DNA of 64,000 bases, from positions 1-64,000 of the forward strand of contig JAABTH010000004.1 in NCBI GenBank assembly GCA_011389985.1, in the 5' to 3' direction. This document shows positions 17,987 through 41,061 of this stretch, piece by piece. The first letter of the stretch is position 1, and every line of letters begins with the position of its first letter. The stretch is from Bacillota bacterium. GTDB lineage: Bacteria > Bacillota > Dethiobacteria > DTU022. The notes under the pieces were generated by a model. It was given only the letters and a program-made list of their open reading frames with translations. It was not told where the DNA came from and ran no database searches. The position numbers and the translations under genes are program-made.

Positions 17987-18085
17987 ACTTCTTTAGCGAT
18001 TCCGGCAGCAGATGGATGTAACGAGGGAGCGCTGAATATATCACTTTAGCACCGTTTGCATAAATCAGAACAGATGAGGTGGCTT

Positions 18086-19264: not shown

Positions 19265-19375
19265 TCAGGCCTAAATATGTAAAACTGTCCGCCTGGTTGA
19301 TGAAGCGAGTCTTGCAAGAAAACCGATCTGCCAAGATTTAAGCAGTCAGCCCAGACTGAATGGAGAGTAATAGTT

Positions 19376-20476: not shown

Positions 20477-20509
20477 ATGAATTCAAACATAATTCAGGAG
20501 GATGAATAA

Positions 20510-22271: not shown

Positions 22272-22356
22272 AAAGTAGAAGGTTACACCATGAATAAGTT
22301 TTATGCTTAATTATAAACATGAGATTAGCTCTCTCATGGCAATACGGGGTGTTTTA

Positions 22357-23322
22357 ATGCACCAGTTGGTGAAAGATTTATTAAATGGTAACAGGCGGGC
22401 AGCGGCCCGGCTGATAACCATTGTTGAAAACGAAGACGATCAGAAAAGATCGCTTTTAAAAGAAATATACCCGCATACCGGCAATGCTTTTATTGTTGGA
22501 ATAACCGGAGCTCCCGGGGCCGGTAAAAGTTCTTTGGTTGATCGACTGCTGCAGCAGATACGTTCAGATGGGCTTACGGCCGGGATCATTGCGGTAGATC
22601 CAACCAGCCCTTTCAGTGGCGGGGCTATACTGGGCGACAGGATTCGCATGCAGGATCATGCTCTCGATTCCGCTGTGTTTATTCGCAGCATGGGAACCAG
22701 GGGCAGCCTTGGAGGTCTGTCACGTTCGACGAGAGAGGCGATCCAGGTCCTTGATGCTTTTGGAAAAGATATTATTATTGTTGAAACTGTCGGTGTGGGA
22801 CAATCTGAAGTCGATATAGTAAAAACAGCGGATTCAACCGTTGTTATGCTCACCCCTGCCGGAGGAGACAGTGTGCAGACTATCAAGGCGGGTATTATGG
22901 AAATAGCAGATGTTTTTGTAATCAACAAGGCAGATCTGCCCGGCTCCGATCGCTCCGCCACAGAGATCAACATGATGCTTGATATGAACGGTGAAAAACC
23001 CTGGCGACCGCCGGTGCTGTCAACTGTTTCAATAAATGGCGAGGGTGTAAATGAACTATGGTTGGCGCTTCAGGAACACAGACAATATCTTGAAGAAAGC
23101 GGAAAACTGCTGGAGGTGCGTAAACAGCGGGTCAGGCGGGAACTTACCGAACAGGTGGAATACCTGGTAAAAACAAGAATATGGGAAGATGTGAGGGATA
23201 CGATAGAGTTGGATGATCTGGTTGAAAAAATTACAAAACGCTTGCAGGATCCCTACAGCGCTGCCGGTGAACTGCTGGAAAAGATTAATTTTTTCAAGGA
23301 AGACCAGGGAGAGGGTGTTTAA
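22357..23322 (+). CDS. MeaB/ArgK-type GTPase chaperone of a B12 acyl-CoA mutase
   Basis: G3E-family GTPase that gates adenosylcobalamin loading and protects its mutase. The 321-residue chain has the Walker A GAPGAGKSSL, the switch region DPTSPFSGGAILGDRIRM, the Walker B ETVGVGQSEVD and the base-recognition motif NKAD. I choose the ATG at 22357, giving MHQLVKDLLNG as is usual at the family's start; earlier in-frame ATGs lie 54 and 21 bases upstream. It ends at the mutase start without a gap. Confidence 0.93.
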   Translation: MHQLVKDLLNGNRRAAARLITIVENEDDQKRSLLKEIYPHTGNAFIVGITGAPGAGKSSLVDRLLQQIRSDGLTAGIIAVDPTSPFSGGAILGDRIRMQDHALDSAVFIRSMGTRGSLGGLSRSTREAIQVLDAFGKDIIIVETVGVGQSEVDIVKTADSTVVMLTPAGGDSVQTIKAGIMEIADVFVINKADLPGSDRSATEINMMLDMNGEKPWRPPVLSTVSINGEGVNELWLALQEHRQYLEESGKLLEVRKQRVRRELTEQVEYLVKTRIWEDVRDTIELDDLVEKITKRLQDPYSAAGELLEKINFFKEDQGEGV

Positions 23323-24978
23323 GTGTCTGCTAGCGATAGCCTTAAGAAATACCTGGTTAAGTGGCAACAAGATATGCATAATTTGGAAGAAAGAGAAGAA
23401 AAATTTACTACAATTTCCGGTGAACCGCTAAAAGCGCTATATACGCCGCTTGATACAAACAGCCTCGATTATGAAAATGATCTCGGTTTTCCGGGAAGCT
23501 ATCCCTATACAAGGGGTGTTCAGCCGAATATGTACCGGGGGCGCCTTTGGACAATGCGCCAGTTTTCAGGTTTCGGTGATGCCTTCGATTCAAACAAGCG
23601 TTATCGCTATCTTCTCGGGCAGGGTCAGACTGGTTTAAGCGTTGCTTTTGATATGCCGACAATTATGGGTTACGATTCTGATCACGAGCGGTCTTTCGGA
23701 GAGGTAGGGCGCTGTGGTGTGGCGATTGATTCTTTAGAAGATATGGAAGTTCTTTTTAACAGGATTCCTCTTGACCAGGTAACGACTTCAATGACAATAA
23801 ACGGGCCGGCAGCAATAATCTGGTGCATGTACCTGGCTAATGCCGAAAAACAGGGAATAAAGTTAAGTGATTTGGGCGGCACAATTCAAAATGATATTTT
23901 GAAAGAATATATAGCCCAGAAATCGTGGATATTCCCTCCCGAACCGTCTATGCGCCTGATCACCGATATATTTGACTTTGCGGCTGAAAATGTTCCCTGT
24001 TGGAATACAATCAGCATTAGCGGCTATCATATTCGCGAAGCAGGTTCGACAGCGGTGCAGGAACTTGCTTTTACACTGGCTGATGGTTTTGCCTATGTCG
24101 AAGCAGGAATTAAAGCTGGTCTTAAAGTAGATTCATTTGCTCCGCGCCTGTCATTTTTCTTCAATGCTCATATGGATTTCTTCGAGGAGGTTTGTAAATA
24201 CCGCGCAGCGAGACGGATATGGGCCAGGCGGATGAAAGAAAAATACGGAGCTAAAGATCCCCGATCACTGAAATTGCGATTCCATACTCAGACAGCCGGC
24301 TGCAGTCTTACGGCGCAGGAGCCGGAAAACAATATAGTGCGCACAGCGCTCGAAGCGCTTTCGGCTGTGTTGGGCGGCACCCAGTCGCTTCACACCAATT
24401 CAATGGATGAAGTGCTGGCCCTGCCGACTGAAAAAGCAGTGAAGATAGCGTTGCGCACTCAGCAGGTTATAGCTCATGAAAGCGGAGTGGCCAACACGAT
24501 TGATCCTCTTGCCGGTTCATATTTTGTAGAATCGCTGACGGCTAAAATGGAGGCGGAGGCAGAAGAATATTTTAACCGTATTGACCAGTTAGGCGGTGTA
24601 CTTGCTGCAATCGACTGTGGATTTTTTCAGCAGGAAATCGCCGATGCAGCATATACTTACCAGAAAGCTGTAGACAGCTGTAAGCGGGTGGTGGTGGGTG
24701 AAAACCGCTATAACAGCGAGGAACCGGTGCAGATAGAACTGCTCAAAATAGACCCGGCTGTGGAAGAAAAACAGGTAGGCAGGCTGAAAGAGTTAAAGCA
24801 GAAGCGAGATAATAATGCCGTAAACCGCAGCCTGGTTGATCTGAAAAACACTGCAGCCAAAAAGGATAACATCATCCCTAAAATTTTCAGTGCCGTAAAA
24901 TTATATGCCACAGAGGGCGAAATTGTTGCCGCCCTGAAAGAAGTATTTGGCGAATACAGGGAAAAACCGTTGTTTTAA
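23323..24978 (+). CDS. B12-dependent acyl-CoA mutase, large subunit; isobutyryl-CoA mutase signature
   Basis: Catalytic TIM-barrel subunit (551 residues) of the methylmalonyl-CoA mutase superfamily, without the cobalamin domain, which is encoded by the next gene. It would usually be labelled methylmalonyl-CoA mutase. By hand alignment to the Propionibacterium enzyme, the position of Tyr89 is Phe81 (TMRQFSGFG) and that of Arg207 is Gln199 (EYIAQKSW). These two residues bind the free carboxylate in methylmalonyl-CoA mutase; Phe/Gln is the pair known from isobutyryl-CoA mutase. The spacing of 118 residues is the same. I therefore infer isobutyryl-CoA/butyryl-CoA interconversion. The start is a GTG directly after meaB. 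Confidence 0.85.
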
Positions 24979-25051
24979 GATTTGGCAGGAAAACATGATA
25001 CTGATGAGATCATAAATATTTTTAGGTGCAGGTAATTTGGAGTGAGTAAAA

Positions 25052-25471
25052 ATGAATGCAAACGCTAAAAAAATCAGGGTTCTGGTAGCGAAGCCGGGGC
25101 TTGATGGGCACGACCGGGGTGCAAGGGTGGTGGCGCGCGCTTTGAGGGATGCCGGGATGGAGGTAATCTACACCGGTCTTCATCAGACGCCTGAGCAGGT
25201 AGTTGAAACAGCCCTGCAGGAAGATGTTGATGTGGTTGGCCTCAGTATCTTATCGGGAGCCCATATGACCATTGCTCCAAGGATCAAAGAGATGCTTAAA
25301 GAGAAAGATATGGGCGATGTTCTCTTCTTGGTCGGTGGCATTATCCCAGGTGAAGATGCTGAAAAACTTTTAGCCGAAGGCAATGCAGATCAAATCTTTA
25401 CCCCCGGAGATCCGCTCGATAAAATTATCAATTATATAAACGGCCGGGTTAACATCAACCGGAAGTCTTAA
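25052..25471 (+). CDS. B12-binding small subunit of the acyl-CoA mutase
   Basis: Carries adenosylcobalamin for the mutase. The 139-residue protein has the B12 signature Asp18-x-His20-x-x-Gly23 (LDGHDRG), a serine in VVGLSILSG and GG in FLVGGIIP, the Rossmann-like cobalamin fold. The His would coordinate cobalt. It lies 73 bases behind the large subunit with TTGGAGTGAG before the ATG. Its last 17 bases overlap the 3' end of the convergent epimerase gene. Confidence 0.94.
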
Positions 25472-26660: not shown

Positions 26661-28703
<2,043 letters not shown>

Positions 28704-28726
28704 CTTGTCTGAGAGGGGGATTTGAC

Positions 28727-30115
28727 ATGGCCGGTAAAGAGGCTTTCACTCTTGTTTACAGCGATGAAAGCAGGCAGTTGTTGCAGGCAATCATTGATTC
28801 GCTTTCTGATGCTGTTTCTGTAGTTGATGAGAATGGAATAGGCATCATGATCAACCGCGCCTATACCAGGCTAACCGGTATGAATAAAGAACAGGTTCTG
28901 GAAAAACCGGCTACGGTTGATATTGCCGAGGGAGAAAGTGTGCATATGCGTGTTCTCCAGACGGGAAAGTCTATAAAAGGAGTGCGCATGAAGGTGGGCC
29001 CTTTGCGTCGTGAGGTTATTGTTAATTGTGCGCCACTTATTATTAAGGGCGAACTTAAGGGAAGTGTTGGCGTCATTCATGATATTTCTGAACTGCGAAG
29101 GGTTATGGAAGAGCTTGAACACACCCGCCGAATGATCAGAAGACTTGAGTCGAGATATACCTTTGATGACATTGTGGGCAGCAGCGATCAAATCAGGGAA
29201 ATTGTTGAGCGGGCAAAACAGGCCGCAACCACACCGGCCTGCGTACTGCTAAGAGGGGAATGCGGTACAGGTAAAGAGCTTTTTGCTCATGCGATCCATC
29301 ATGCCAGTGATCGCGCTGATAAGCCTTTGATCAGGGTTAACTGCGCTTCTCTAACCGACACTCTTCTTGAAAGCGAGCTTTTTGGTTATGCTGACGGAGC
29401 TTTCACCGGAGCAAGGAAGGGCGGCAGAAAAGGTTACTTTGAGGAAGCAAATGAAGGCACGCTTTTTCTTGATGAGATTGGCGCCATGAAAAAAGAAGCA
29501 CAGGCAAGATTATTGCGGGCAATCCAGGAAGGTGAAATTATCCGGGTAGGTGAATCCCGCAGCAGAAGCGTCAATGTGCGACTTATTACCGCAACCAATG
29601 CAAATCTTGAAAAATTAACAGATGAAGGTCTCTTCCGAAAAGATCTTTACTATCGTCTGAATGTATTCCCGATCGACCTGCCTCCACTGCGTGAGATAAA
29701 AAGTGACATCCCCCTGTTGGTGAATCATTACCTCAAGCGCTATGCCAAGGAATATGGCCGTACTGTTGTCGAAACTGTACCTTCTGTTTACCGCCGCTTA
29801 AAAGAGTATGATTGGCCCGGAAATGTCCGGGAACTGCAGAATGTTATTGCCCGGGCTCTGATTAACCTCGGTCGTGAAGAAGAAATTATTGAAATCAGGC
29901 ATCTCGTTATGCCCTTTATTACTGATGCTGAAAAGAGCGAAGATGCTTTCAATCTTCCTGAAGGAAGTTTAAAAGAAATGCACAGCAAGTGGGAAAAATC
30001 GATACTAGCGCAAGCGCTATTTGACAGTAAAGGAAATAAGGCTGAAGCTGCCCGCCGCCTTGATATATCAATTCGCAACCTCTACAATAAACTTCACCAG
30101 CACAAACTTCTATAA
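28727..30115 (+). CDS. PAS-containing sigma-54-dependent transcription activator
   Basis: A 462-residue bacterial enhancer-binding protein. A PAS domain spans about residues 15-125, an AAA+ ATPase about 150-380, and a Fis-type helix-turn-helix lies at the end (AARRLDISIRNLYNKL). The ATPase has Walker A GECGTGKE (Cys replaces the usual Ser), the sigma-54 contact loop GAFTGA, and Walker B TLFLDEIG. I choose the ATG at 28727 behind GAGAGGGGG; the frame opens earlier within the ligA end. It lies just before a candidate -24/-12 promoter and the 2-oxoacid oxidoreductase genes, its likely targets. The PAS signal is unknown. Confidence 0.93.
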   Translation: MAGKEAFTLVYSDESRQLLQAIIDSLSDAVSVVDENGIGIMINRAYTRLTGMNKEQVLEKPATVDIAEGESVHMRVLQTGKSIKGVRMKVGPLRREVIVNCAPLIIKGELKGSVGVIHDISELRRVMEELEHTRRMIRRLESRYTFDDIVGSSDQIREIVERAKQAATTPACVLLRGECGTGKELFAHAIHHASDRADKPLIRVNCASLTDTLLESELFGYADGAFTGARKGGRKGYFEEANEGTLFLDEIGAMKKEAQARLLRAIQEGEIIRVGESRSRSVNVRLITATNANLEKLTDEGLFRKDLYYRLNVFPIDLPPLREIKSDIPLLVNHYLKRYAKEYGRTVVETVPSVYRRLKEYDWPGNVRELQNVIARALINLGREEEIIEIRHLVMPFITDAEKSEDAFNLPEGSLKEMHSKWEKSILAQALFDSKGNKAEAARRLDISIRNLYNKLHQHKLL

Positions 30116-30294: not shown

Positions 30295-30339
30295 TGCAAT
30301 ATATTGCAGGCAAACAATTGCACCATGCAAAATGTTGCA
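30295..30339 (+). repeat. Cluster of TTGCA/TGCAA half-sites before the oxidoreductase operon
   Basis: TGCAATATATTGCA (30295-30308) is a perfect 14-base palindrome. TTGCA-N3-TGCAA follows at 30318-30330, and another TTGCA at 30335-30339 just before AAGGAG. The half-sites are candidates for a dimeric regulator, possibly the neighbouring activator, although they lie downstream of the proposed promoter. Confidence 0.5.
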
Positions 30340-30352
30340 GGAAGGAGAATCT

Positions 30353-30952
30353 ATGAAAGAAGATATGCTTGAATTCAGGCTTCATGGCCGCGGTGGCCAG
30401 GGAATTGTAATTGCAGCGTCTATTTTTGCAGAGGCTGTTTTTCTGGATGGTCATTATGCCCGCGCTTTTTCATTATTTGGCGCTGAAAGACGCGGCGCGC
30501 CGGTGACTGCTTTTATAAGAACAGGCAGTGATCGACTAATGCCGCGCAGCCGCATTTACGAACCTGACTATGTCGTCGTGTTTGATTCAACGATTTCCGG
30601 CGATACTCTTTTAGCTGGATTAAAAAGGGAAGGGACAATAATAATCAACGCTGATTCCAGTTGGACTAAGCGCCTTCCTGTCGGTGAAATTGAGAAAGCA
30701 ACGGCAAAGGTATTTATTGTTGATGCCAGGGAGATTGCCTGGAAACACAAACTGGCGATTGGCAGTTTCCCAATGGTAAATACGGTAATGCTTGGCGCAA
30801 TGGCGAGAATAAGCGGGTTGGCTTCACTTGATAGTTTGTTTGTCTCAATAAAAAAAAGAGTAAGCGCCAGTATTGATGCAAACATAAATGCAGTAAAAGA
30901 TGGTTTTCAGTGCGTGAAGGAGGTGAACAGCTTTGCCCCCAGTTATGATTAA
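30353..30952 (+). CDS. 2-oxoacid:acceptor oxidoreductase, gamma subunit
   Basis: Gamma subunit of the pyruvate/2-oxoacid:ferredoxin oxidoreductase family (199 residues). The N-terminus LHGRGGQGIVIAASIFAEA is the family hallmark, and SLFGAERRGAPV follows. In this family it contributes to CoA binding next to the thiamine site. GAAGGAG precedes the ATG at 30353; an upstream in-frame ATG would bury that site. It overlaps the next gene by 20 bases and opens the alpha/beta/gamma/delta set. Confidence 0.92.
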   Translation: MKEDMLEFRLHGRGGQGIVIAASIFAEAVFLDGHYARAFSLFGAERRGAPVTAFIRTGSDRLMPRSRIYEPDYVVVFDSTISGDTLLAGLKREGTIIINADSSWTKRLPVGEIEKATAKVFIVDAREIAWKHKLAIGSFPMVNTVMLGAMARISGLASLDSLFVSIKKRVSASIDANINAVKDGFQCVKEVNSFAPSYD

Positions 30953-32480
30953 TCAGGATAAAGGTTACTCATTCGGCAATGAACCAATCTCTGTAAATAA
31001 AACAGGTGAATGGCGTTTTTTAACTCCGAAAAAAATCAAGAAACTTTCTCCATGCAGTCAGGGCTGCCTGCTTGATGGTGAAATACCCGATTGGATGGAA
31101 GCGGTAAAAAAAGAAGAATGGGCTGAAGCATGGAATATCATGAAACGAAACAATCCTTTTCCGGCCCTGACCGGATACGTATGCTTTCATCCCTGTTCAG
31201 AAAACTGCAATCGCGGGCAGTTGGACCAGGAACTTGATATCCAGGCTGTTGAAAAAAAAATCGGCCTCTGGAGACTTAATAATTACAAGCACGAGACCGA
31301 ACCGTGTTCATTTAAAGGCAGGGTAGCTGTTGTAGGTTCCGGCCCAGCAGGTTTGAGCTGTGCTTTTTACCTCACTGAAGCCGGTTATGAAGTTACTGTT
31401 TACGAAAAGTCAGATCTTATCGGAGGAATGCTGGCCCTGGGTATTCCGGAATACAGGCTTCCACGCAAAGTTTTAGAACAGGAGCTTCAACTTTTGAAAA
31501 ATAAAGGAATAATTTTTATAACTAATTCGGCTCTGGGCAGTGATTACAGTCTGGCTGATCTTTACAGTAAGTATGATCAGGTTTTCGTTGCTACCGGAGC
31601 CTGGGTAGCCCGAAAGGCCTTGATACCAGGAGAAGAAAATAAAGGCGTTTGGAATGCTCTTGAATTATTAAGTGCTTATAACAGAAGCAAAATACCGGAT
31701 CTAAAAAATCCGGTTGTGGTTGTAGGCGGAGGTAATGCTGCTGTTGACAGCGCCCGCAGCGCTCTCCGGCTACCGGGAGTGAATCAAGTCAGCCTTGTTT
31801 ACCGGCGTGGTAGGATCGAAATGCCGGCGGACCAGTCAGAAGTGGAAGCAGCCGAGAAGGAAGGGGTTGAGTTGATATTTAATGCCACACCCCGGAAGAT
31901 TGAAACGGATCAGAATCAGCTTAGTGAAATAATCTTTGATTACAGCAAGACTAATTTAAATGGATTAATCATTGACTGCAACAAATCTTTTAAAAAAGAG
32001 TGCAAAACAGTAATAATGGCTGTTGGTCAAAATGCGGACCTTAGTGTGCTCGGACTTCTTGATGAAGCAAAAACATTCATAGCGGGAGGAGATATGATCA
32101 GTGGGCCGGCCACTGTAGCTGATGCAATCAGGGCAGGCCGGATTGCGGCTGAAACAATCAAATCTTTTTTGGAGGGTTTACCGGGTCCTTTAGATGATCC
32201 AAAAGAGGAGGTTCCGATCTTATTTGAAGAGTTGAATCTTGCAGCGAGGCTGAACATGCAGCCGCTTAAAAAACAGGTTGACCCCGTATCAGAGGCAGGA
32301 CGCTGTCTGGGCTGCGGAACATGCAATTCCTGCGGTATATGTTATCTTTTCTGTCCTGATCTTGCCGTTGATAATGTCGGTGGACGTTATGAATTTAACC
32401 TTGATTATTGCAAGGGTTGCGGCATCTGTGTTAAAGAATGCCCGGCCAGAGCCCTGGTTATGGAAGGAGGAAGTGAATAA
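30933..32480 (+). CDS. GltD-like NAD(P)H/FAD oxidoreductase fused to a ferredoxin (delta) domain
   Basis: A 515-residue fusion. Residues about 30-105 hold the cysteine-rich N-terminal Fe-S region of glutamate synthase small subunits (CSQGC, CFHPCSENC). An FAD fold follows (VAVVGSGPAGLSCA), then an NAD(P)H fold (VVVVGGGNAAVDSA). The last 60 residues are a two-cluster ferredoxin (CLGCGTCNSCGICYLFC, CKGCGICVKEC) like the delta subunit of pyruvate:ferredoxin oxidoreductase. It starts at a TTG 9 bases after AAGGAGG and its stop overlaps the alpha-subunit ATG. It likely passes electrons between 2-oxoacid oxidation and NAD(P)H; the pyridine nucleotide is not certain. Confidence 0.9.
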   Translation: MPPVMINQDKGYSFGNEPISVNKTGEWRFLTPKKIKKLSPCSQGCLLDGEIPDWMEAVKKEEWAEAWNIMKRNNPFPALTGYVCFHPCSENCNRGQLDQELDIQAVEKKIGLWRLNNYKHETEPCSFKGRVAVVGSGPAGLSCAFYLTEAGYEVTVYEKSDLIGGMLALGIPEYRLPRKVLEQELQLLKNKGIIFITNSALGSDYSLADLYSKYDQVFVATGAWVARKALIPGEENKGVWNALELLSAYNRSKIPDLKNPVVVVGGGNAAVDSARSALRLPGVNQVSLVYRRGRIEMPADQSEVEAAEKEGVELIFNATPRKIETDQNQLSEIIFDYSKTNLNGLIIDCNKSFKKECKTVIMAVGQNADLSVLGLLDEAKTFIAGGDMISGPATVADAIRAGRIAAETIKSFLEGLPGPLDDPKEEVPILFEELNLAARLNMQPLKKQVDPVSEAGRCLGCGTCNSCGICYLFCPDLAVDNVGGRYEFNLDYCKGCGICVKECPARALVMEGGSE

Positions 32481-33622
32481 TGCCATTTGAAGTAGTTAGC
32501 GGAAGCCAGGCTGCAGCTATAGCGGTTCAGCGGGTCGGGGTTGATCTTGTTGCCGCTTATCCGATAACGCCGCAAACAGCAATTGTGGAAACCCTGGCCA
32601 ATTATGACGCCAAAGGAGAGCTCGGCTGCGATTTTGTCAGTGTTGAATCCGAATACTCTGCCCTTGCCTGTTGTAATGGGGCTGCTGCGGCTGGAGCAAG
32701 GGTGTTCACAGCCACGGCCTCACACGGGCTGGCCTATATGCATGAAATGATTCACTGGTGCAGCGGCGCCAGGCTGCCAATAGTAATGGTTAATGTAAAC
32801 AGGGCTATCGGAGCGCCGTGGTGTCTTGATCCCGATCAGGGTGACAGCCTCAGTCAGAGGGATACGGGCTGGATGCAGATTTACTGTTCTGGGGCCCAGG
32901 AGGTTTTCGATACAGTTTTGCAGGCTTACCGTCTCAGTGAGGAATTGCTTTTGCCATGCATGGTAGTTTTCGACGGTTTTTATATATCACACACATATGA
33001 AGCAGTCGATATACCGGACAAAGAACAGGTCAGTAAGTTTATCGGGCCCTCAAACTTTAAAGCGCAGGTTGTCCCGGGCGAGCCGGGCAATATTCAGGGT
33101 ATTATTCCCGGAGAAATACAGCATCAGCTTGTCAAGAAAAGATCTGAAACAATGATGTTTGCCCCAAGCTTGTTTGAGGAATTAAACAAAAGCTTCGAGA
33201 AAATATTTGGCCGGTGTTACAGGGCAGTAGAGGTAGTTGCTCCGATTGGGGCGAAAACAGCTATTTTCACTGCAGGGGCAACAGCTGAAACGGTTAGATG
33301 GTGTTTGCCTAAAATGGAAGGGACAGCAATGATTCAGCTAAGGATGTTTCGACCTTTTCCCGCAGAGCAAATCCGTTCAATTATAGAAAAAAATAATTTT
33401 GAAAGAATTGTGGTGATCGATCGGAACTGTTCAGTAGGCGTTGGGGGAATTTTGGCTCAGGAACTAAAGGCAGCTCTTTACGGTATGAGTAAGCTACCGG
33501 CTGTTCATGACCTGATTCTGGCTGGTGGAATTGATTTGACCGGAGAGATGTTGGGCCAAATGGTTGAAGAATCAGATGGAAATGTTAAAACCGGTTACAA
33601 GTGGGGAGATGAACTGCTATGA
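32480..33622 (+). CDS. 2-oxoacid:acceptor oxidoreductase, alpha subunit
   Basis: Alpha subunit (380 residues) of the pyruvate/2-oxoacid oxidoreductase. AAYPITPQTAIVETL near the start and VSVESEYSAL plus TATASHGLAYMHE are the pyrimidine-domain segments that pack on thiamine diphosphate. The transketolase C-terminal-like domain follows (LRMFRPFPAEQI, VIDRNCSVGVGG). It begins in the previous stop (TAATG) and overlaps the beta gene by 4 bases. Pyruvate is the likeliest substrate, but a branched-chain 2-oxoacid is possible. Confidence 0.93.
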   Translation: MPFEVVSGSQAAAIAVQRVGVDLVAAYPITPQTAIVETLANYDAKGELGCDFVSVESEYSALACCNGAAAAGARVFTATASHGLAYMHEMIHWCSGARLPIVMVNVNRAIGAPWCLDPDQGDSLSQRDTGWMQIYCSGAQEVFDTVLQAYRLSEELLLPCMVVFDGFYISHTYEAVDIPDKEQVSKFIGPSNFKAQVVPGEPGNIQGIIPGEIQHQLVKKRSETMMFAPSLFEELNKSFEKIFGRCYRAVEVVAPIGAKTAIFTAGATAETVRWCLPKMEGTAMIQLRMFRPFPAEQIRSIIEKNNFERIVVIDRNCSVGVGGILAQELKAALYGMSKLPAVHDLILAGGIDLTGEMLGQMVEESDGNVKTGYKWGDELL

Positions 33623-34521
33623 AAATAGAAGAGATGAACCGCGAAAACGAAATGATCTATTCAGGGCACAGTGCCTGCCCGGGTTGTGGGGCAGCCCTTG
33701 CTGTCCGTTTTCTAACCAAAACCCTGGGGCCCAACCTGGCCATAGCTCTTACAGCCTCCTGCTGGAGTATTATAGCCGGTGTTCCACCGCTGACGGCATT
33801 AAAATGCCCGATACTGCACTGTCCTTTTCCAAGTGCCGGTTCGGTTGGTAGTGGATTGCGTAGGGGTTTGAATGCAAAAGGTATGCTTGATACCACTGTT
33901 GTAGTGCTGGCCGGTGACGGCGGAACTTTTGATATTGGCCTGCAGGCGTTATCCGGTGCGGCCCAGCGGAATGAAGACTACATTTTTGTTTGCTACGACA
34001 ACGAAGCGTACATGAATACGGGTATGCAGACAAGCTCGGCTACACCCTTTGGCGCCCGCACTAACACAGCGCCCTACCCGCTTTTTAAAGAGGGTCAGAA
34101 GAAAGATATTGTGCAGATTATGGCAGCTCACAGTATACCTTATGCTGCAACTGCAACTGTGGCATTTCCGGAAGATATGGAGAACAAATTTAAATTTGCC
34201 AAGGAATTAAAGGGGTTTCGTTTCATCCATATTCTTTCACCCTGCCCACCGGGCTGGGGAACTGAATCATCAGATACCATAGAACTTTCAAGGCTTGCTG
34301 TTTCCAGCGGTGCTTTCCCCTTATTTGAAGTTAAATATGGTATGGAGTGGAGGATGACTACGCCGCTTGAAGATAAGAGAACGCCCTTGGGCGACTATCT
34401 CGGAATACAGCGTCGCTTCAAGGATATAGATAGTGAGCGTCTCAAGATCTTACAAGAAGAAGTTAATTACGAATGGGAATTGCTGCAAGACAAAGTAAGA
34501 AGGTCTGAGATTTTAAAATAA
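33619..34521 (+). CDS. 2-oxoacid:acceptor oxidoreductase, beta subunit (thiamine-binding)
   Basis: Thiamine diphosphate-binding subunit (300 residues). CPGCGAALAVRF gives two of the cluster cysteines, LAGDGGTFDIGLQ with the downstream NEAYMNTGMQTS is the Mg-thiamine signature (GDG..N). The NEAYMNTG wording resembles pyruvate:ferredoxin oxidoreductases. It completes the four-gene set with overlapping stops and starts; 109 bases separate it from fumarase. Confidence 0.94.
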   Translation: MKIEEMNRENEMIYSGHSACPGCGAALAVRFLTKTLGPNLAIALTASCWSIIAGVPPLTALKCPILHCPFPSAGSVGSGLRRGLNAKGMLDTTVVVLAGDGGTFDIGLQALSGAAQRNEDYIFVCYDNEAYMNTGMQTSSATPFGARTNTAPYPLFKEGQKKDIVQIMAAHSIPYAATATVAFPEDMENKFKFAKELKGFRFIHILSPCPPGWGTESSDTIELSRLAVSSGAFPLFEVKYGMEWRMTTPLEDKRTPLGDYLGIQRRFKDIDSERLKILQEEVNYEWELLQDKVRRSEILK

Positions 34522-34630
34522 ATTTTAGAATTATAATAAATTTTATAATAAGCGGCAGGAATTTCATTCCCCAGGCAGAAAAACAATAATGTAATGATTA
34601 AATTTTAAGAATATCAGGGAGGTGTCGGTT

Positions 34631-35476
34631 TTGCGGGAACTTGCCGCGTCTACTATTTCCGAAAATGTGGCCGAGATGTGCCAGGAAGCAAACTTCTATC
34701 TGGGGGAAGATGTATTTGATGCATTGAAAAAATCCCTGGAAACAGAAGAATCGCCAACCGGTAAGGAAGTTCTGAAACAACTGATTGAGAATGTTGAAAT
34801 TGCCAGGAGTGAGCAGATCCCCATCTGTCAGGATACGGGATTTGCTGTTTTTTTTGTTGAGTGGGGCCAGGAGGTGCATCTTACCGGAAGTACTCTCGAA
34901 GAAGCTATGCATGCGGGTGTAAGGAAGGGTTATGAAGAGGGTTACCTGCGCAAATCGATCGTAGATGATCCTTTATATGAGCGGAAGAATACCGGAGACA
35001 ATACCCCGGCTGTAATATACACCGATATAGTGCCGGGCGACAAAGTAAAAATTGCCTTTGCTCCCAAAGGCGGGGGCAGCGAAAACATGAGTGCGATCAA
35101 AATGCTGAAGCCCTCTGATGGTGAAGAGGGCGTGGTAGACTTTGTTGTCAACCATGTCAAGGCAGCCGGACCAAACCCCTGCCCACCGATAGTAGTAGGT
35201 ATCGGCATCGGGGGAACATTTGACAAGGTAGCAGTTAATGCCAAGAAAGCTCTTTTCCGCAAACTTGGTGAGCCGCACCCAGATGAAACCTTTGCAGCTC
35301 TGGAGAAGAAAATTCTTGACAAAATTAATGATTTAGGTGTTGGGCCCCAGGGTTTTGGCGGAAGAACATTTGCCCTGGCGGTGCATATTGAAACTTTCCC
35401 ATCCCATATTGCGAGTATGGCTGCGGCAGTTAATATCAACTGCCACGCCTGCCGCCATCTGGAGAGGACTATTTAA
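34631..35476 (+). CDS. Class I fumarase, alpha (N-terminal) subunit
   Basis: Iron-sulfur fumarate hydratase subunit, interconverting fumarate and malate. The 281-residue protein has CQDTGFAVFF, KGGGSENMSA and NCHACRH, with cysteines of the labile 4Fe-4S cluster. I choose the TTG at 34631 because AGGGAGGT is 8 bases before it; a GTG at 34622 lies inside that site. The family usually starts MRE, as here. The partner subunit follows after 35 bases. A tartrate dehydratase role is the main alternative, disfavoured by the malic enzyme next door. Confidence 0.92.
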   Translation: MRELAASTISENVAEMCQEANFYLGEDVFDALKKSLETEESPTGKEVLKQLIENVEIARSEQIPICQDTGFAVFFVEWGQEVHLTGSTLEEAMHAGVRKGYEEGYLRKSIVDDPLYERKNTGDNTPAVIYTDIVPGDKVKIAFAPKGGGSENMSAIKMLKPSDGEEGVVDFVVNHVKAAGPNPCPPIVVGIGIGGTFDKVAVNAKKALFRKLGEPHPDETFAALEKKILDKINDLGVGPQGFGGRTFALAVHIETFPSHIASMAAAVNINCHACRHLERTI

Positions 35477-35511: not shown

Positions 35512-36063
35512 ATGGAACCGAAAAGAATTGAAGCTCCCCTAACGGATGAAGTGGTAATGTCGCTTAAAGCCGGCGATAATGTTCTGATCAACGGGGTTAT
35601 CTATACAGCAAGGGATGCCGCCCATAAAAAGCTGGTGGAGTTAATGGATAAAGGAGAACCGCTTCCGATTGATCTGCAAGGTCAGTTTATCTATTATGTT
35701 GGCCCTACACCTGAGAAGCCGGGTAATGCAATCGGCTCAGCGGGCCCTACAACCAGTGGACGAATGGATGCCTACACGCCAAAAATGCTGGAACAGGGGA
35801 TGAAAGCCTGTATCGGTAAAGGCCTGCGGAATCAGACTGTAAGAGATGCCCTGATTAAGTACAAGGGGTTATACCTGGCAGCTGTGGGAGGCGCAGGGGC
35901 ATTACTTTCCAAGCGCATTACAAAAAGTGAAGTTGTAGCATACCCCGAGCTGGGCCCTGAAGCGATACGACGCCTTGAAGTGAAGGATTTTCCCGCTACA
36001 GTAATTAACGATGCTTACGGTAACGATCTTTATGTCGAAGGAGCAAAAGAGTACGCGAGATAA
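35512..36063 (+). CDS. Class I fumarase, beta (C-terminal) subunit
   Basis: The 183-residue partner of the two-subunit fumarase. It has GPTPEKPGNAIGSAGPTTSGRMD, which must be read as two family motifs (GPTPEKPG, SAGPTTSGRMD), and GGAGALLSKRI. The ATG at 35512 is unusually far (about 16 bases) from AAAGGAGG; no other start codon is in frame between them, so translation may be less efficient. Confidence 0.92.
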   Translation: MEPKRIEAPLTDEVVMSLKAGDNVLINGVIYTARDAAHKKLVELMDKGEPLPIDLQGQFIYYVGPTPEKPGNAIGSAGPTTSGRMDAYTPKMLEQGMKACIGKGLRNQTVRDALIKYKGLYLAAVGGAGALLSKRITKSEVVAYPELGPEAIRRLEVKDFPATVINDAYGNDLYVEGAKEYAR

Positions 36064-36177
36064 AAACGGGATTTCGCAGAAAGAAGCCAGGAAGCTTTAA
36101 TAATAGAGATGTGACCGATGCATTATCAATTACCAGGTTTATTAAATAATTATAACGAGGAAAGTAGGGACAGGCAA

Positions 36178-37518
36178 ATGACTATGAACAAGGAAGAACT
36201 GCTGGCCAAGGCGAAAAAGCCAGCTGCCGACGCAATGCGTCTGCATCCGTTTTACAAGGGAAAAATTGAAGTTAATTTAAAAAGTTGTGTTCGCGATATC
36301 GGCGACTTTGCAATCTGGTATACTCCCGGGGTGGCTGAGCCCTGCAAGGCGATTGCCCAGGATAAAGAAAAAGTATATGAGTATACCAACAAGGGCAATT
36401 TTTTGGCAGTAGTTTCAGACGGCACAAGAGTGCTCGGTCTGGGTGACATCGGGCCTGAAGCAAGTATGCCGGTTATGGAAGGCAAAGCGCTGTTATTTAA
36501 ATACTTAGGTGGTGTTGATGCTTTTCCGGTTTGTGTTGATACCAAAGACCCGGAAGAGTTAATTAATTTTGTCAAGATGCTGCAGCCCTGTTTCGGAGGG
36601 ATCAACCTGGAGGATATTTCCAGCCCGAAATGTTTCTATATTCTTGATCGCCTTCAGGAAGAATGTCATATCCCAGTTTGGCACGATGATCAGCAGGGAA
36701 CAGCTATGGTCACCGTAGCCGGGCTGATCAATGCTCTTAAGATAGTCGGTAAGAAAATGAGTGAGGCAAAAATTGTGATGATCGGCGCCGGAGCGGCCAA
36801 TATTTGTACTGTCCGCATGTTAAAAGCAGCCGGAGCTGATACCGGCAAGATCATTATGGTCGACAGCAAAGGTACATTGCATGAAGGGCGCACTGAACTA
36901 AAGGAAAAACATCCTGTTAAGTGGGAGTTGTGTAAAACCACTAATTCAGCCAATTTAAAGGGCGCTGCTGCTGAAGCCTGCGAGGGTGCGGATATTATGA
37001 TCGCTTTATCAACACCGGGGCCCGATACTGTCAAGAAAGAATGGATTTCAAGCATGGCTAAGGATGCAATTGTCTTTGCCTGTGCTAATCCAATTCCGGA
37101 GATCTGGCCATGGGAAGCTCTCGAAGCGGGAGCAAAAATTGTCTCTACCGGACGATCTGATTTTCCAAACCAGGTCAATAACTCACTTGGATTCCCGGCT
37201 ATTTTCCGCGGAGTTCTTGATGTTCAGGCTACCAAGATCACAGATTCCATGTGCATTGCAGCTGCCGAAGCGTTGGCCGACTGCGCACCCGATGGTGGCA
37301 TGAATCCCGAGAAGATTTTGCCGACAATGGATATGTGGGAAGTATTTCCCCGTGTTGCCACTGCTACTGCTATGAAAGCGATAGAAGAAGGTGTAGCCAA
37401 GAAGAAGCTTAGCAGAGATGAGATATACAAGCTTGCTGAAGAATCGATCGGTAAAGCTCAGAGACAAACCAAACTGTTAATGGATGAGGGCTTCATACCG
37501 GCACCACCTGCCGAATAA
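36178..37518 (+). CDS. Malic enzyme (malate dehydrogenase, oxaloacetate-decarboxylating)
   Basis: Oxidatively decarboxylates malate to pyruvate and CO2. The 446-residue chain has the catalytic Tyr region IWYTPGVAEPCKAI, the metal/NAD motif LGLGDIGPEASMPVMEGKALL, VWHDDQQGTA and the nucleotide loop GAGAANI. The coenzyme (NAD or NADP) is not certain. I use the ATG at 36178; the frame opens 60 bases earlier without a good ribosome site. It sits between fumarase and the fumarate reductase-like pair, giving a path between C4 acids and pyruvate. Confidence 0.93.
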   Translation: MTMNKEELLAKAKKPAADAMRLHPFYKGKIEVNLKSCVRDIGDFAIWYTPGVAEPCKAIAQDKEKVYEYTNKGNFLAVVSDGTRVLGLGDIGPEASMPVMEGKALLFKYLGGVDAFPVCVDTKDPEELINFVKMLQPCFGGINLEDISSPKCFYILDRLQEECHIPVWHDDQQGTAMVTVAGLINALKIVGKKMSEAKIVMIGAGAANICTVRMLKAAGADTGKIIMVDSKGTLHEGRTELKEKHPVKWELCKTTNSANLKGAAAEACEGADIMIALSTPGPDTVKKEWISSMAKDAIVFACANPIPEIWPWEALEAGAKIVSTGRSDFPNQVNNSLGFPAIFRGVLDVQATKITDSMCIAAAEALADCAPDGGMNPEKILPTMDMWEVFPRVATATAMKAIEEGVAKKKLSRDEIYKLAEESIGKAQRQTKLLMDEGFIPAPPAE

Positions 37519-37543: not shown

Positions 37544-38224
37544 ATGAGCGACGAAATCAAAATGGTCGATATATTTATAATGGGCAAGCGCTACACTGTG
37601 CCTGAAACGCTTACGATCATGGATGGGATGGAATATGCGGGCTACCAGCTGAAGCGTGGCTGTGGTTGCCGTGCCGGTTTTTGCGGCGCCTGCGCCACGG
37701 TCTACCGCATGGCAGGCGACTATGAACTTAAAGTAGCGCTGGCCTGCCAGACCAAGGTCGAAGATGGTATGTACCTGGCCCAGATTCCATTTTTCCCAGG
37801 CCGGAAAGCTACTTTTGATCTTGAAAAGATTAAAGCTTCTACAGCACACATGGCCCAGCTATACCCGGAAGTCTTTCGCTGTCTGGGCTGTAGTTCCTGC
37901 ACAAAGGTATGCCCGCAGGATATTGATGTTATGCAGTATATTGCTTATATACAGCGTGGTGATTTTGAAAAAGCAGCTGACCTGTCTTTTGACTGTGTCA
38001 TGTGTGGTTTGTGCGTTTCACGCTGCCCGGCCAACATAGTTCACTACAACGCTGCACTTACTGCAAGGCGCATGTACAGCAGATATATTGCCAAACCCGA
38101 TGCTTTTCTTGCTGAGAGAACAAAGGCGATCGAAGAAGGTAGTTGCGATGCCGAGATAGATGTGCTGATTAATTCAGATCAGGCAAAACTACAGGAAATG
38201 TACAATAACAGGGAAATTGAATAA
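37544..38224 (+). CDS. Iron-sulfur subunit of a fumarate reductase/succinate dehydrogenase-like enzyme
   Basis: Electron-transfer subunit of 226 residues. Cysteines 40, 42, 47, 50 and 68 form a 2Fe-2S-type ferredoxin loop (GCGCRAGFCGAC). Cysteines 113, 116, 119, 123 and 151, 154, 157, 161 form two 4Fe-4S motifs. Classical SdhB has a 3Fe-4S instead of one of these. AAGGAGG precedes the ATG at 37544. No membrane-anchor gene is present, so the complex should be soluble or dock on another protein. The flavoprotein partner is next. Confidence 0.85.
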   Translation: MSDEIKMVDIFIMGKRYTVPETLTIMDGMEYAGYQLKRGCGCRAGFCGACATVYRMAGDYELKVALACQTKVEDGMYLAQIPFFPGRKATFDLEKIKASTAHMAQLYPEVFRCLGCSSCTKVCPQDIDVMQYIAYIQRGDFEKAADLSFDCVMCGLCVSRCPANIVHYNAALTARRMYSRYIAKPDAFLAERTKAIEEGSCDAEIDVLINSDQAKLQEMYNNREIE

Positions 38225-38251
38225 AAGATCTGGAGAGGAGGAGCAAAATCA

Positions 38252-39856
38252 TTGGCTTACACAGGTAAATTAGGTGAATTAGTCAAGAAAGTTGAAGAAA
38301 GCAGGACCTCCCGGGTCGGTGTACATTATCCGCGTATGTCTCAGGAGGAACGGCAGGACGTTCTGGAAAATTTTCACCCGGATTATAATAAAAACGGCTT
38401 TCGTAATGTTAAAGTAGGGGTGAATAAGGGCGCCCGTATGCCTGTAGAAATGGCCGACGTATTTGAATCATGGAGCCGTTTACGCGATGTGAATTTGGAT
38501 CTTAATGCGGCACCTGATTATGATGTTGATGTTCTGATCATTGGTGGTGGTGGGGCCGGCGCTTCAGCTGCCCTCGAAGCACACGCAGCCGGTTCAGAGG
38601 TAATGATAGCAACCAAGCTGCGGTTTGGCGATGCCAATACAATGATGGCCCAGGGCGGAATTCAGGCCGCAGACAAGGAAAACGATACGCCGGCTATACA
38701 TTATCTTGATGTTGTCGGCGGAGGACGTTTTGAAAATGTGCCGGAGCTTGCCCGTGCCCTCGTGATGGATGCTCCGCTTGTAATCAAATGGCTTGAAGAT
38801 TTGGGCACAATGTTTGACAAAAAAGACGACGGAACGATGATTACAATTCATGGCGGTGGAACATCAAGAAAAAGGATGCATGCCGCTCGCGATTATACCG
38901 GCGCTGAAATTATGAGGACTTTAAGAGATGAGGTTCTCAACAAACAAATCACTGTTGTTGAGTTTTGTCCTGCTGTAGAAATACTGCTCGATAAAAAAGG
39001 GCAAGCTGCCGGAGCGGTGCTCTTTAACCTTGAGACCGAACAGTACCTGATTGCCAGGGCTAAGACAGTTATTATTGCAACCGGCGGATCAGGAAGGCTT
39101 CATTACAGGGGTTTCCCAACCAGTAATCACTATGGAGCCACGGCTGACGGTTTGATTATCGGCTACCGGGCCGGCGCTAAAACGATTTATGCTGATTCAA
39201 TCCAATATCACCCGACCGGTGGAGCTTATCCCCCGCAGCTGCTGGGCCTGCTCGTTACCGAAAAGACCCGTGGGCTGGGCGCAACACCTCTAAATATCAA
39301 GGGTGAACAGTTTGTATATCACCTTGAGACGCGTGATGTGGAGTCTTCAGCAATTATTCGTGAATGCGATGAACGCGAGCTTGGGGTTCCCCTGCCGACG
39401 GGAATTACTGCAGTATGGCTTGACTCGCCTATTATTGAGTTAATCCATGGCGAAGGAACGATTGAACGACAATTACCGGCGATGATGCGTCAGTTCCAGC
39501 GTTTCGGAGTGGATATCCGCAAAGAGCCCATGCTCATTTACCCAACTCTGCATTACCAGAATGGTGGCCTGCTGATTGATGAAAAAGGTATGACGGCAGT
39601 TGAAAAGCTCTACGTGGCAGGAGAAGCTGCCGGAGGAATTCATGGCACTAACAGGCTTATGGGTAATTCACTGCTTGACATTATAGTCTTTGGAAGACGG
39701 GCAGGAAGACATGCAGCTGCAGTCAGCAAAGATTCTCCTGTGCCTGAGGGATTAAATCTTGAGCATGTGAACGTTTACCATCGTGAATTGGAGGAAACCG
39801 GGGCAGCTGACGAACGTGTCGGACCGATGTTACTGCCCCACTATACACACAGATAA
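38252..39856 (+). CDS. Flavoprotein subunit of a soluble fumarate reductase/succinate dehydrogenase-like enzyme
   Basis: A 534-residue FAD protein of the SdhA/aspartate oxidase family. Residues 1-90 are an extra N-terminal region. The FAD loop is IIGGGGAGAS (96-105). The MAQGGI segment has Asn129 where covalent-FAD enzymes have His (SHT), so FAD is probably non-covalent. Catalytic-site pieces are QYHPTGG, TEKTRGLGATPLN and GTNRLMGNSLLD. The usual C-terminal helical domain of SdhA is largely missing. The start is a TTG about 10 bases after GAGGAGG. Fumarate reduction or succinate oxidation is inferred from fold and neighbours; aspartate oxidase is less likely because of the Fe-S partner. Confidence 0.83.
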   Translation: MAYTGKLGELVKKVEESRTSRVGVHYPRMSQEERQDVLENFHPDYNKNGFRNVKVGVNKGARMPVEMADVFESWSRLRDVNLDLNAAPDYDVDVLIIGGGGAGASAALEAHAAGSEVMIATKLRFGDANTMMAQGGIQAADKENDTPAIHYLDVVGGGRFENVPELARALVMDAPLVIKWLEDLGTMFDKKDDGTMITIHGGGTSRKRMHAARDYTGAEIMRTLRDEVLNKQITVVEFCPAVEILLDKKGQAAGAVLFNLETEQYLIARAKTVIIATGGSGRLHYRGFPTSNHYGATADGLIIGYRAGAKTIYADSIQYHPTGGAYPPQLLGLLVTEKTRGLGATPLNIKGEQFVYHLETRDVESSAIIRECDERELGVPLPTGITAVWLDSPIIELIHGEGTIERQLPAMMRQFQRFGVDIRKEPMLIYPTLHYQNGGLLIDEKGMTAVEKLYVAGEAAGGIHGTNRLMGNSLLDIIVFGRRAGRHAAAVSKDSPVPEGLNLEHVNVYHRELEETGAADERVGPMLLPHYTHR

Positions 39857-41061
39857 TGATCGAAACCGGCAATGAAAATCGCCTTCCACTTGAAGGGCTG
39901 CTTGTCATTGATCTGAGCAGGCTGCTGCCGGGACCCCTTTGCACGATGCTCCTGGGAGATTATGGAGCAGAAGTGATAAAAATAGAAGATGTCGAGGCCG
40001 GCGATCCGACCAGGTTTGTCGGCCCTCTTATTGACGGAACGGGTTCTTTTTTCCGCCAACTTAACCGTAATAAGAAAAGCCTTGCCTTGAATCTGAAAAG
40101 CTCTGAGGGCAGAAAAGTGTTAGAAAAACTGGCAAAGCGGGCAGATGTGCTGGTGGAAGGTTTTCGCCCGGGAGTGATGTCCCGGCTGGGGGTTGGTTAC
40201 GACAGCATTAAGTCAATAAATCCTCGAATTGTCTATGTATCAATCAGCGGTTACGGGCAGCAGGGAGCGTACCGGGAGAGAGCAGGGCATGATATCAACT
40301 ATACCGCCCTGTCAGGTCTGCTTGACCTCAGTGCCGCCAAAGATGGGGTCCCGATAATGCCGGCTGTTCAAATTGCCGATATCGCCGGGGGTTCATTAAT
40401 GGCTGTTAACGGTATTATGTTTGCACTTTATGAGCGAAGTATCAGCGGCAAAGGCAGCTATGTTGATTTGGCTATGACCAGGGGGCTTTTACCCTGGCTT
40501 GTATATGCTGCGTCATCTTTGCAAGATGATGAACTGCCCCGACGAAAGCAGGGTCACATAACCGGCGCTTATGCCTGCTATAACATTTATGAAACTGCCG
40601 ATCAGAAATATATGAGCTTAGGAGCGCTCGAACCTGTATTCTGGCAGCGCTTCTGCGAGTCGGTCGGAAAGCCGGAATGGACACCACTTCAGTTTGACAG
40701 TGAGAGCAGGGAAAAATTAATTTATGAAGTTAAGTTGATATTTAAGAGTAAATCAAGAAAATATTGGATAGAACACTTTACTGCTGTGGATGCCTGCTGT
40801 GAGCCTGTCCTTAACCTTAGTGAGGCAGTTAACCATGAAATAAGCAGGGAAGGGCGTTACTGGCTTGAAAATAATATTGGTGAAGATGAAAATGAATTAC
40901 TGACCGGTTTTCCCATACTTTTTAATGGTTGTGCAGGCAGCATGCGTATGCAGCCGCCCTGTCATGGTCAACACACCAGAGATATCCTGAAAGAATTAGG
41001 TTACAGCGATGAAGTTATTGCAAAAATGGCTGAAAAAAGATCAATATTTATACCCCATTAA
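39856..41061 (+). CDS. Class III CoA-transferase (CaiB/BaiF family)
   Basis: Transfers CoA between carboxylic acids through an enzyme-acyl anhydride on an aspartate. The 401-residue chain has DLSRLLPGPLCTMLLGDYGAEV and VEGFRPGVMSRLGVGY as family segments (the first read in pieces), and the catalytic Asp146 in GHDINYTALSG. The ATG overlaps the flavoprotein stop by one base, which indicates coupled expression. Substrates are unknown; succinate/succinyl-CoA exchange is plausible from context. Alpha-methylacyl-CoA racemases share this fold. Confidence 0.88.
   Translation: MIETGNENRLPLEGLLVIDLSRLLPGPLCTMLLGDYGAEVIKIEDVEAGDPTRFVGPLIDGTGSFFRQLNRNKKSLALNLKSSEGRKVLEKLAKRADVLVEGFRPGVMSRLGVGYDSIKSINPRIVYVSISGYGQQGAYRERAGHDINYTALSGLLDLSAAKDGVPIMPAVQIADIAGGSLMAVNGIMFALYERSISGKGSYVDLAMTRGLLPWLVYAASSLQDDELPRRKQGHITGAYACYNIYETADQKYMSLGALEPVFWQRFCESVGKPEWTPLQFDSESREKLIYEVKLIFKSKSRKYWIEHFTAVDACCEPVLNLSEAVNHEISREGRYWLENNIGEDENELLTGFPILFNGCAGSMRMQPPCHGQHTRDILKELGYSDEVIAKMAEKRSIFIPH

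Follow-up and report, generated by a model that had tools for sequence, protein, structure and literature searches.

Here, we report on two adjacent genes, frdB and frdA, located in a 64,000-nucleotide stretch of DNA from a member of the Bacillota (lineage Dethiobacteria, DTU022; assembly GCA_011389985.1, contig JAABTH010000004.1, positions 1 to 64,000; hereafter, the window). The products of these genes, collectively FrdBA, belong to a large family of anchorless fumarate reductase-like proteins from anaerobic Firmicutes and Anaerolineae, and the odd features of this family are, to judge from their conservation across it, design and not decay. Fumarate reductase/succinate dehydrogenase chemistry is well supported by the protein sequences, with reversal as a succinate dehydrogenase feasible in principle. 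In the reading that we favor, with a probability of about 0.6, FrdBA is a soluble, cytoplasmic, NADH-linked and probably ferredoxin-coupled fumarate reductase that is fed by Flx-Hdr.

An enzyme of this type has already been proposed, and biochemical proof was not found in the literature consulted. What is new here is the conservation of all the odd features, the wide distribution of the family and its repeated linkage to Hdr-Flx, along with the unlinked Hdr-Flx set and the propionate-pathway setting in the genome that contains the window. Formation of succinate without a quinone alters the energy accounting of anaerobic fermentation, and, should the enzyme be bifurcating, the reduction of each fumarate would also yield reduced ferredoxin, convertible by Rnf to an ion gradient. 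The catalytic unit and the candidate partner are now defined with enough precision to be tested directly.

An anchorless flavoprotein and iron-sulfur protein pair

The original prediction of an FrdBA pair is corroborated by the agreement of open reading frames, ribosome-binding sites and Pfam domains. The frdB gene starts with ATG at 37544, preceded by AAGGAGG, and frdA with TTG at 38252, preceded by GGAGAGGAGG. Both genes are intact and co-directional, and are separated by short gaps from the fumarase and malic enzyme genes that precede them on the same strand.

FrdA consists of an N-terminal extension (residues 1 to ~88), the flavin adenine dinucleotide (FAD)-binding and capping domains (~90-495, with the Pfam domain FAD_binding_2 at 93-474) and a short C-terminus. 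In an alignment with Escherichia coli FrdA, SdhA and NadB, Asn129 occupies the position of the histidine to which FAD is covalently attached in E. coli FrdA, as predicted, and it is invariant in two alignments of homologues (n=20 and n=44); given the absence of this histidine, the FAD of FrdA is probably bound non-covalently. Arg361, Arg468, His434 and His320 align, respectively, with Arg287, Arg390, His355 and His232 of E. coli FrdA and are invariant across the homologues; FrdA therefore retains the fumarate/succinate active site typical of the SdhA/FrdA/NadB superfamily. The N-terminal extension, originally put at 90 residues, comprises ~85-88 residues and is conserved, with R18, P43, D44, G56 and G60 invariant; a single-chain model predicts a folded region of helices and strands, with a predicted local distance difference test score mostly of 82-94.

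The loss of the SdhA C-terminal domain also stands, since a Pfam scan of FrdA detected none and the short length is conserved. FrdA-type proteins are tightly clustered at ~530-545 amino acids (aa) across dozens of genomes, and therefore the short C-terminus does not reflect truncation or a frameshift, an explanation that we reject in view of the conservation of Asn129 and of the C-terminal P-x-LLP-x-Y end as well.

FrdB combines a Fer2 domain with a Fer4 dicluster. Besides the two 4Fe-4S motifs on which the original prediction relied, all eight cysteines of which are invariant, the protein contains a [2Fe-2S] motif, Cys42/47/50/68, that had been omitted. In classical SdhB/FrdB, a non-cysteine residue in the second of the 4Fe-4S-type motifs gives rise to a 3Fe-4S cluster. 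Cys154 takes the place of this residue, which is valine in E. coli FrdB, so that the second motif of FrdB is of the 4Fe-4S type. The predicted wire of clusters, 2Fe-2S/4Fe-4S/4Fe-4S, would terminate in a 4Fe-4S cluster and not in a quinone-facing 3Fe-4S cluster. FrdBA shares with E. coli complex II the FAD fold, the catalytic residues and an iron-sulfur subunit with a 2Fe-2S domain, and E. coli quinol:fumarate reductase FrdA is the top Foldseek match of the FrdA model; unlike complex II, it lacks the covalent-FAD histidine, the C-terminal domain and a membrane anchor, and has a second 4Fe-4S motif in place of the 3Fe-4S site.

There is no membrane-anchor gene beside frdBA, and a search of the window's genome (an assembly 97% complete) with the Sdh_cyt model (PF01127) produced no match, so that no sdhC-like gene was found elsewhere either; FrdC/FrdD-type models were not searched. 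The same model scored above the cut-off in none of 80 relatives, compared with 7 of 14 control genomes. For MenG/UbiE (PF01209), the genome yielded generic methyltransferases only, the best at 50 bits, whereas the true enzyme found in one relative scores 245 bits; this family also picks up generic methyltransferases, and the score gap alone served as the quinone test. These results support, but do not prove, a quinone-free organism. Together with the separate clade described below, they support the earlier view of FrdBA as a soluble enzyme and not a quinone enzyme.

The scores of curated models place the pair outside the named families. The best NCBIfam matches are the TfrA model for FrdA (329.6 bits, curated cut-off 718) and the TfrB model for FrdB (47.5 bits, cut-off 385), followed for FrdA by the SdhA/FrdA model TIGR01812 (254.7 bits, cut-off 567.3) and the NadB model (250.4 bits, cut-off 452.75). 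In a tree of 72 proteins that included NadB and SdhA/FrdA, with TfrA left out, the FrdA family is separate from both and, with two sister groups of 50% and 40% identity, lies on one side of a branch with a support of 93.

It is hardly credible that FrdA serves NAD synthesis as an L-aspartate oxidase or as some other NadB-group oxidase. The proteins belong to the same superfamily, NadB models reach 250 bits, and no separate NadB was found in the window's genome at E 1e-80; however, this score is under the cut-off, FrdA falls outside the NadB clade and hence does not cluster with the aspartate oxidases, and the active-site glutamate of NadB (EGGHS) is replaced (GGGTS). In addition, a gene for an iron-sulfur partner adjoins frdA, and several carriers possess a true NadB alongside the FrdA-type protein. 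We therefore rejected NadB as the identity of FrdA.

The high rank of the TfrA and TfrB models raises another alternative, namely, a thiol:fumarate reductase in which HdrB oxidizes thiols and passes the electrons on to FrdBA. TfrAB of methanogens likewise is a soluble flavoprotein with an iron-sulfur subunit, and one locus (L254 of genome G122) has the order HdrC-HdrB-FrdB-FrdA without HdrA or Flx nearby. Nevertheless, we consider this alternative very improbable: in a comparison made with models and not with the proteins themselves, the scores are far under the curated cut-offs, FrdA has an additional N-terminal region and does not extend over the C-terminal part of the TfrA model, and FrdB has no CCG domain detectable with Pfam. 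HdrA and FlxABCD, moreover, accompany FrdBA at most loci.

Two related groups were observed. A second FrdBA paralogue, ~50% identical and with the motifs MAEGG and HCGGHS, occurs at six loci (L048, L049, L050, L051, L052 and L056), mostly adjoining an MmgE/PrpD-like gene, a cluster c32 gene or both, and is possibly a reductase for a different unsaturated dicarboxylate. A group of flavoproteins with 40% identity and 477-497 aa has no adjoining frdB gene (L053:9232-10716 and L054).

Hdr-Flx as the candidate electron donor

FrdA was found in 49 of the 80 relatives of the window's genome and in 24 genomes of a phylum-wide sample (n=249) that was chosen irrespective of synteny. The 80 named FrdA loci include those of Ruminococcus flavefaciens FD-1, [Clostridium] asparagiforme, Clostridium lacusfryxellense, Desulfofundulus thermobenzoicus, Dethiobacter metagenome-assembled genomes (MAGs) and Anaerolineae, and the nearest named genomes are MAGs labeled Syntrophomonadaceae. 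Because the family is present in rumen and gut Firmicutes, including R. flavefaciens, the identity of the electron donor matters for how succinate and propionate are produced in animals and sediments.

The main evidence on the donor comes from gene neighborhoods. A block of seven genes encodes HdrB, HdrC, HdrA, FlxD/MvhD and three more proteins, including an NAD-binding FlxA-like protein, and at least two of these genes are found close to frdA (where frdA was called, no farther than 10 kb away and in the same orientation) at 56 of 80 homologous loci, which were selected by FrdA similarity and not by synteny, with kinship among gut Clostridia inflating the count. In the phylum-wide sample, HdrB is encoded no more than 10 kb from FrdA in 11 of the 24 carriers. 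There are two or more gene orders: in R. flavefaciens (L087), FrdBA follows Flx in the order FumC-HdrB-HdrC-HdrA-FlxD-x-x-FlxA-FrdB-FrdA-membrane protein, and at L252 and L253 FrdBA precedes Hdr. The fact that lineages differ in the side of frdBA on which the block is found speaks for a recurrent functional linkage.

Several variations on this arrangement were noticed. Directly after frdBA in gut Clostridia, such as at L087, there is a gene for a membrane protein of ~410 aa (cluster c9, 40 loci), whose position is that of the putative succinate transporter in the P. thermosuccinogenes operon described below. Anaerolineae and some other MAGs (L075, L094 and L113) encode an HdrA-like fusion of up to ~1,500 aa at the frdBA locus, where a different, 370-aa iron-sulfur protein replaces some of the Flx proteins. 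In long HdrA fusions of ~1,040 aa in relatives (for example, at G028:C79, G036:C44 and G054:C8), the frame is open except for a single in-frame TGA, possibly a selenocysteine codon.

In the window's genome, genes for all seven of the Hdr/Flx proteins are present on another contig (C10, locus L164, 10921-17374): HdrB, HdrC, HdrA, FlxD, two iron-sulfur proteins and the FlxA-like protein, with the CCG, FlpD, Fer4_22 and NAD-binding domains confirmed. The HdrA of this set is ~66% identical to frd-linked HdrA and nests among the frd-linked HdrAs in a tree; a second HdrA, on contig C41, belongs to a different clade. The latter is part of an HdrA-FlxDCBA set (C41:76536-84824; L171:4536-12824) located by EtfB/EtfA-like genes and a gene for a 384-aa HdrC-like iron-sulfur protein; HdrAs of its score class are present in most relatives, and the set may link acyl-CoA dehydrogenase electrons to NADH and ferredoxin. 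With frd-type HdrA assigned by score per matched position, 30 of the 80 relatives have both FrdA and frd-type HdrA, 18 FrdA only, 3 HdrA only and 29 neither (Fisher p 1.8e-6, with no correction for kinship).

The proteins themselves provide some hints of contact. The C-terminal half of FrdB aligns with HdrC at an hhalign E of 4e-11 over 66 columns, compared with 1e-8 for SdhB, and a fold search also found a likeness to HdrC, at low TM (template modeling) scores and as a hint only. Methanogen TfrB is an FrdB-like protein that carries an HdrB-like domain, and the C10 HdrB scores 148.8 bits, short of the cut-off, with SdhE, which is the CCG subunit of methylmenaquinol:fumarate reductase; for these two reasons, a contact between FrdB and HdrB is favored. 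CCG proteins akin to HdrB partner SdhAB-like modules in other systems.

A Flx-Hdr-linked fumarate reductase of Pseudoclostridium thermosuccinogenes was reportedly proposed in a 2019 preprint. In the 'succinate operon' of this bacterium, which is upregulated ~4-fold under CO2 limitation, a bifurcating NADH dehydrogenase/heterodisulfide reductase has been proposed to feed the fumarate reductase (PMC7282089). Its anchorless FrdAB is encoded next to a seven-gene Flx-Hdr block with a fumarase gene, an order shared with gut-clostridial relatives of the window's family and identical to that at L087 (the two being likened by gene order and not by protein sequence). In the window's organism, by contrast, Flx-Hdr is encoded on another contig, the fumarase is of class I, and malic enzyme, 2-oxoacid oxidoreductase and coenzyme A (CoA)-transferase genes accompany frdBA. 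In tubeworm symbionts and Thioflavicoccus, tfrAB is interspersed with flxABCD-hdrABC, and the authors suggest a complex (PMC6315080); by gene arrangement, these fumarate reductase genes resemble the homologous loci analyzed here, although their context is the gammaproteobacterial reductive tricarboxylic acid cycle. A similar working is found in MetFV-HdrABC-MvhD of Moorella thermoacetica, where a soluble NADH-linked HdrABC-MvhD module serves a catalytic partner, but the catalytic subunits and the substrate differ.

Several observations weigh against Flx-Hdr as the donor in the window's organism. The Hdr/Flx genes are not adjacent to frdBA at the window locus, and FrdA is only weakly associated with frd-type HdrA in the window's own family (both, 17; FrdA only, 16; HdrA only, 2; neither, 8; p 0.14). 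Frd-type HdrA was not detected in 16 of the 33 FrdA-bearing genomes of this family, including most of one genus, which implies another donor there, unless the assemblies are incomplete. FrdB aligns over its whole length with SdhB (E 6e-15), and therefore the likeness to HdrC alone is weak. The P. thermosuccinogenes case itself rests on genomics and transcripts, with no purified complex (PMC7282089). Given the weak association within the family and the genus in which most members have FrdBA without frd-type HdrA, we infer the partnership in the window's organism with moderate strength only.

These observations leave room for a soluble fumarate reductase with another donor, such as ferredoxin, a GltD-like NAD(P)H protein or a different Hdr-like set, and without bifurcation, which we regard as possible, though distinctly less probable. 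The GltD-like protein (30933-32480), a fusion of an NAD(P)/FAD protein with a PorD-type ferredoxin domain inside a PorC-PorA-PorB set, belongs to the block of genes conserved in the window's family, which does not include Hdr-Flx, and in some distant carriers (G144 and G148) HdrB is not nearby or not detected. The complete orthologous Hdr-Flx set kept in the window's genome and the repeated linkage in the wider family speak for Flx-Hdr instead, and the GltD-PorD fusion is accounted for by the surrounding 2-oxoacid oxidoreductase genes. As a separate observation, a GltD-PorD fusion within a Por set recalls NAD-linked phenylglyoxylate dehydrogenase. For the electron partner, called unknown in the original prediction, Hdr-Flx is a strong candidate to which the choice can be limited, and this type of enzyme has precedents.

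Mechanism and direction

From the genes, residues and linkage described above, we infer a complex of FrdBA with Flx-Hdr that would operate as follows. NADH would be oxidized at FlxA and the electrons bifurcated at the HdrA flavin, from which one pair would pass through HdrC/HdrB to the FrdB clusters and the FAD of FrdA, reducing fumarate to succinate, and the other pair would reduce ferredoxin. The net reaction would be fumarate + 2 NADH + oxidized ferredoxin -> succinate + 2 NAD+ + reduced ferredoxin. Subsequently, the energy of ferredoxin would be conserved by Rnf as an ion gradient; RnfD-like proteins are encoded in the window's genome. The setting of FrdBA in a C4-dicarboxylate block, with 2-oxoacid oxidoreductase, fumarase, malic enzyme and CoA-transferase, suggests that it supplies the succinate/methylmalonyl-CoA pathway, most of which is present in this genome. 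The methylmalonyl-CoA mutase genes in the window belong to a pathway in which succinyl-CoA is consumed or supplied, and, taken with this block, FrdBA would thus connect malate and fumarate to succinate and propionyl-CoA.

The standard potentials are +30 mV for fumarate, -320 mV for NAD and -420 to -500 mV for ferredoxin. By our own estimate from standard potentials, the bifurcating reaction toward succinate is exergonic by ~33-48 kJ/mol, and fumarate reduction is therefore the default reading.

Operating mainly in reverse, the complex would be an electron-confurcating succinate dehydrogenase that needs no quinone and serves propionate oxidation, with reduced ferredoxin lifting succinate electrons to NADH. 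Published propionate syntrophs employ a membrane-bound succinate dehydrogenase (PMC7082340, PMC10579422), with reverse electron transport (PMC6046458). The gene content of the window's genome is compatible with such a role: methylmalonyl-CoA mutase and MeaB are encoded in the window, and contig C41 carries genes for succinyl-CoA synthetase, a carboxyltransferase, a second mutase and a glyoxalase-fold protein that occupies the epimerase position. The FrdBA block also includes fumarase, malic enzyme and 2-oxoacid oxidoreductase, and neither an anchor (PF01127) nor a true MenG/UbiE was found in this genome. The same genes, however, also serve propionate formation, the closest published case, P. 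thermosuccinogenes, makes succinate, and reversal requires extreme metabolite ratios because the forward reaction is exergonic by the above amount. We consider a mainly reverse role unlikely, and it is similarly doubtful that FrdBA, the unlinked Flx-Hdr and the methylmalonyl-CoA pathway jointly carry out propionate oxidation without a membrane step at succinate.

Gene neighborhood of frdBA

The features of the window discussed here are collected in Table 1.

Table 1. Features in and around the frdBA locus (positions in the window)
Feature	Position	Strand	Basis
MeaB GTPase, methylmalonyl-CoA mutase large subunit, B12-binding small subunit	22303..25468	+	TIGR00641, 772.8 bits; TIGR00750, 368.7 bits
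Enhancer-binding-type (PAS/AAA+/HTH) regulator upstream of the block	28700..30115	+	Open reading frame sequence
2-oxoacid oxidoreductase genes: PorC (30332), GltD-like (30933), PorA (32480), PorB (33619)	30332..34521	+	Profile matches
Class I fumarase alpha subunit	34622..35476	+	408.9 bits, cut-off 276
Class I fumarase beta subunit	35512..36063	+	272.4 bits, cut-off 238
Malic enzyme	36118..37518	+	Pfam; same place in relatives
frdB, FrdB-like iron-sulfur subunit, 226 aa	37544..38224	+	Open reading frame, ribosome-binding site, Pfam, cysteine sets, comparison with E. coli SdhB/FrdB
FrdB [2Fe-2S] motif, C42-x4-C47-x2-C50-x17-C68	37667..37747	+	Invariant columns; Fer2
FrdB first 4Fe-4S motif, CLGCSSCTKVC (Cys113/116/119/123)	37880..37912	+	Invariant
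FrdB second 4Fe-4S motif, CVMCGLCVSRC (Cys151/154/157/161)	37994..38026	+	Invariant; comparison with E. coli
frdA, FrdA-like flavoprotein subunit, 534 aa	38252..39856	+	Open reading frame, Pfam, alignments, structure model
Asn129 codon at the covalent-FAD His position of E. coli FrdA/SdhA	38636..38638	+	Alignment
Class III CoA-transferase (CaiB/Frc family), overlapping the frdA stop	39856..41061	+	PF02515

A class III CoA-transferase gene is found directly 3' of frdA at 8 of 73 loci, mostly in close relatives. The 2-oxoacid oxidoreductase genes are located upstream of the fumarase, malic enzyme and frdBA genes in relatives as well (L059, L063-L066 and L068). A pattern search upstream of the block found no -24/-12 promoter site near the consensus, and the counts of promoter and terminator patterns equaled those in shuffled sequence.

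The B12-binding small subunit (139 aa, 25052-25468) was named from its sequence. The methylmalonyl-CoA mutase genes are adjoined by a thiolase gene and two acyl-CoA dehydrogenase genes (18056-21649), which are consistent with a pathway for fatty acids or branched-chain acids.

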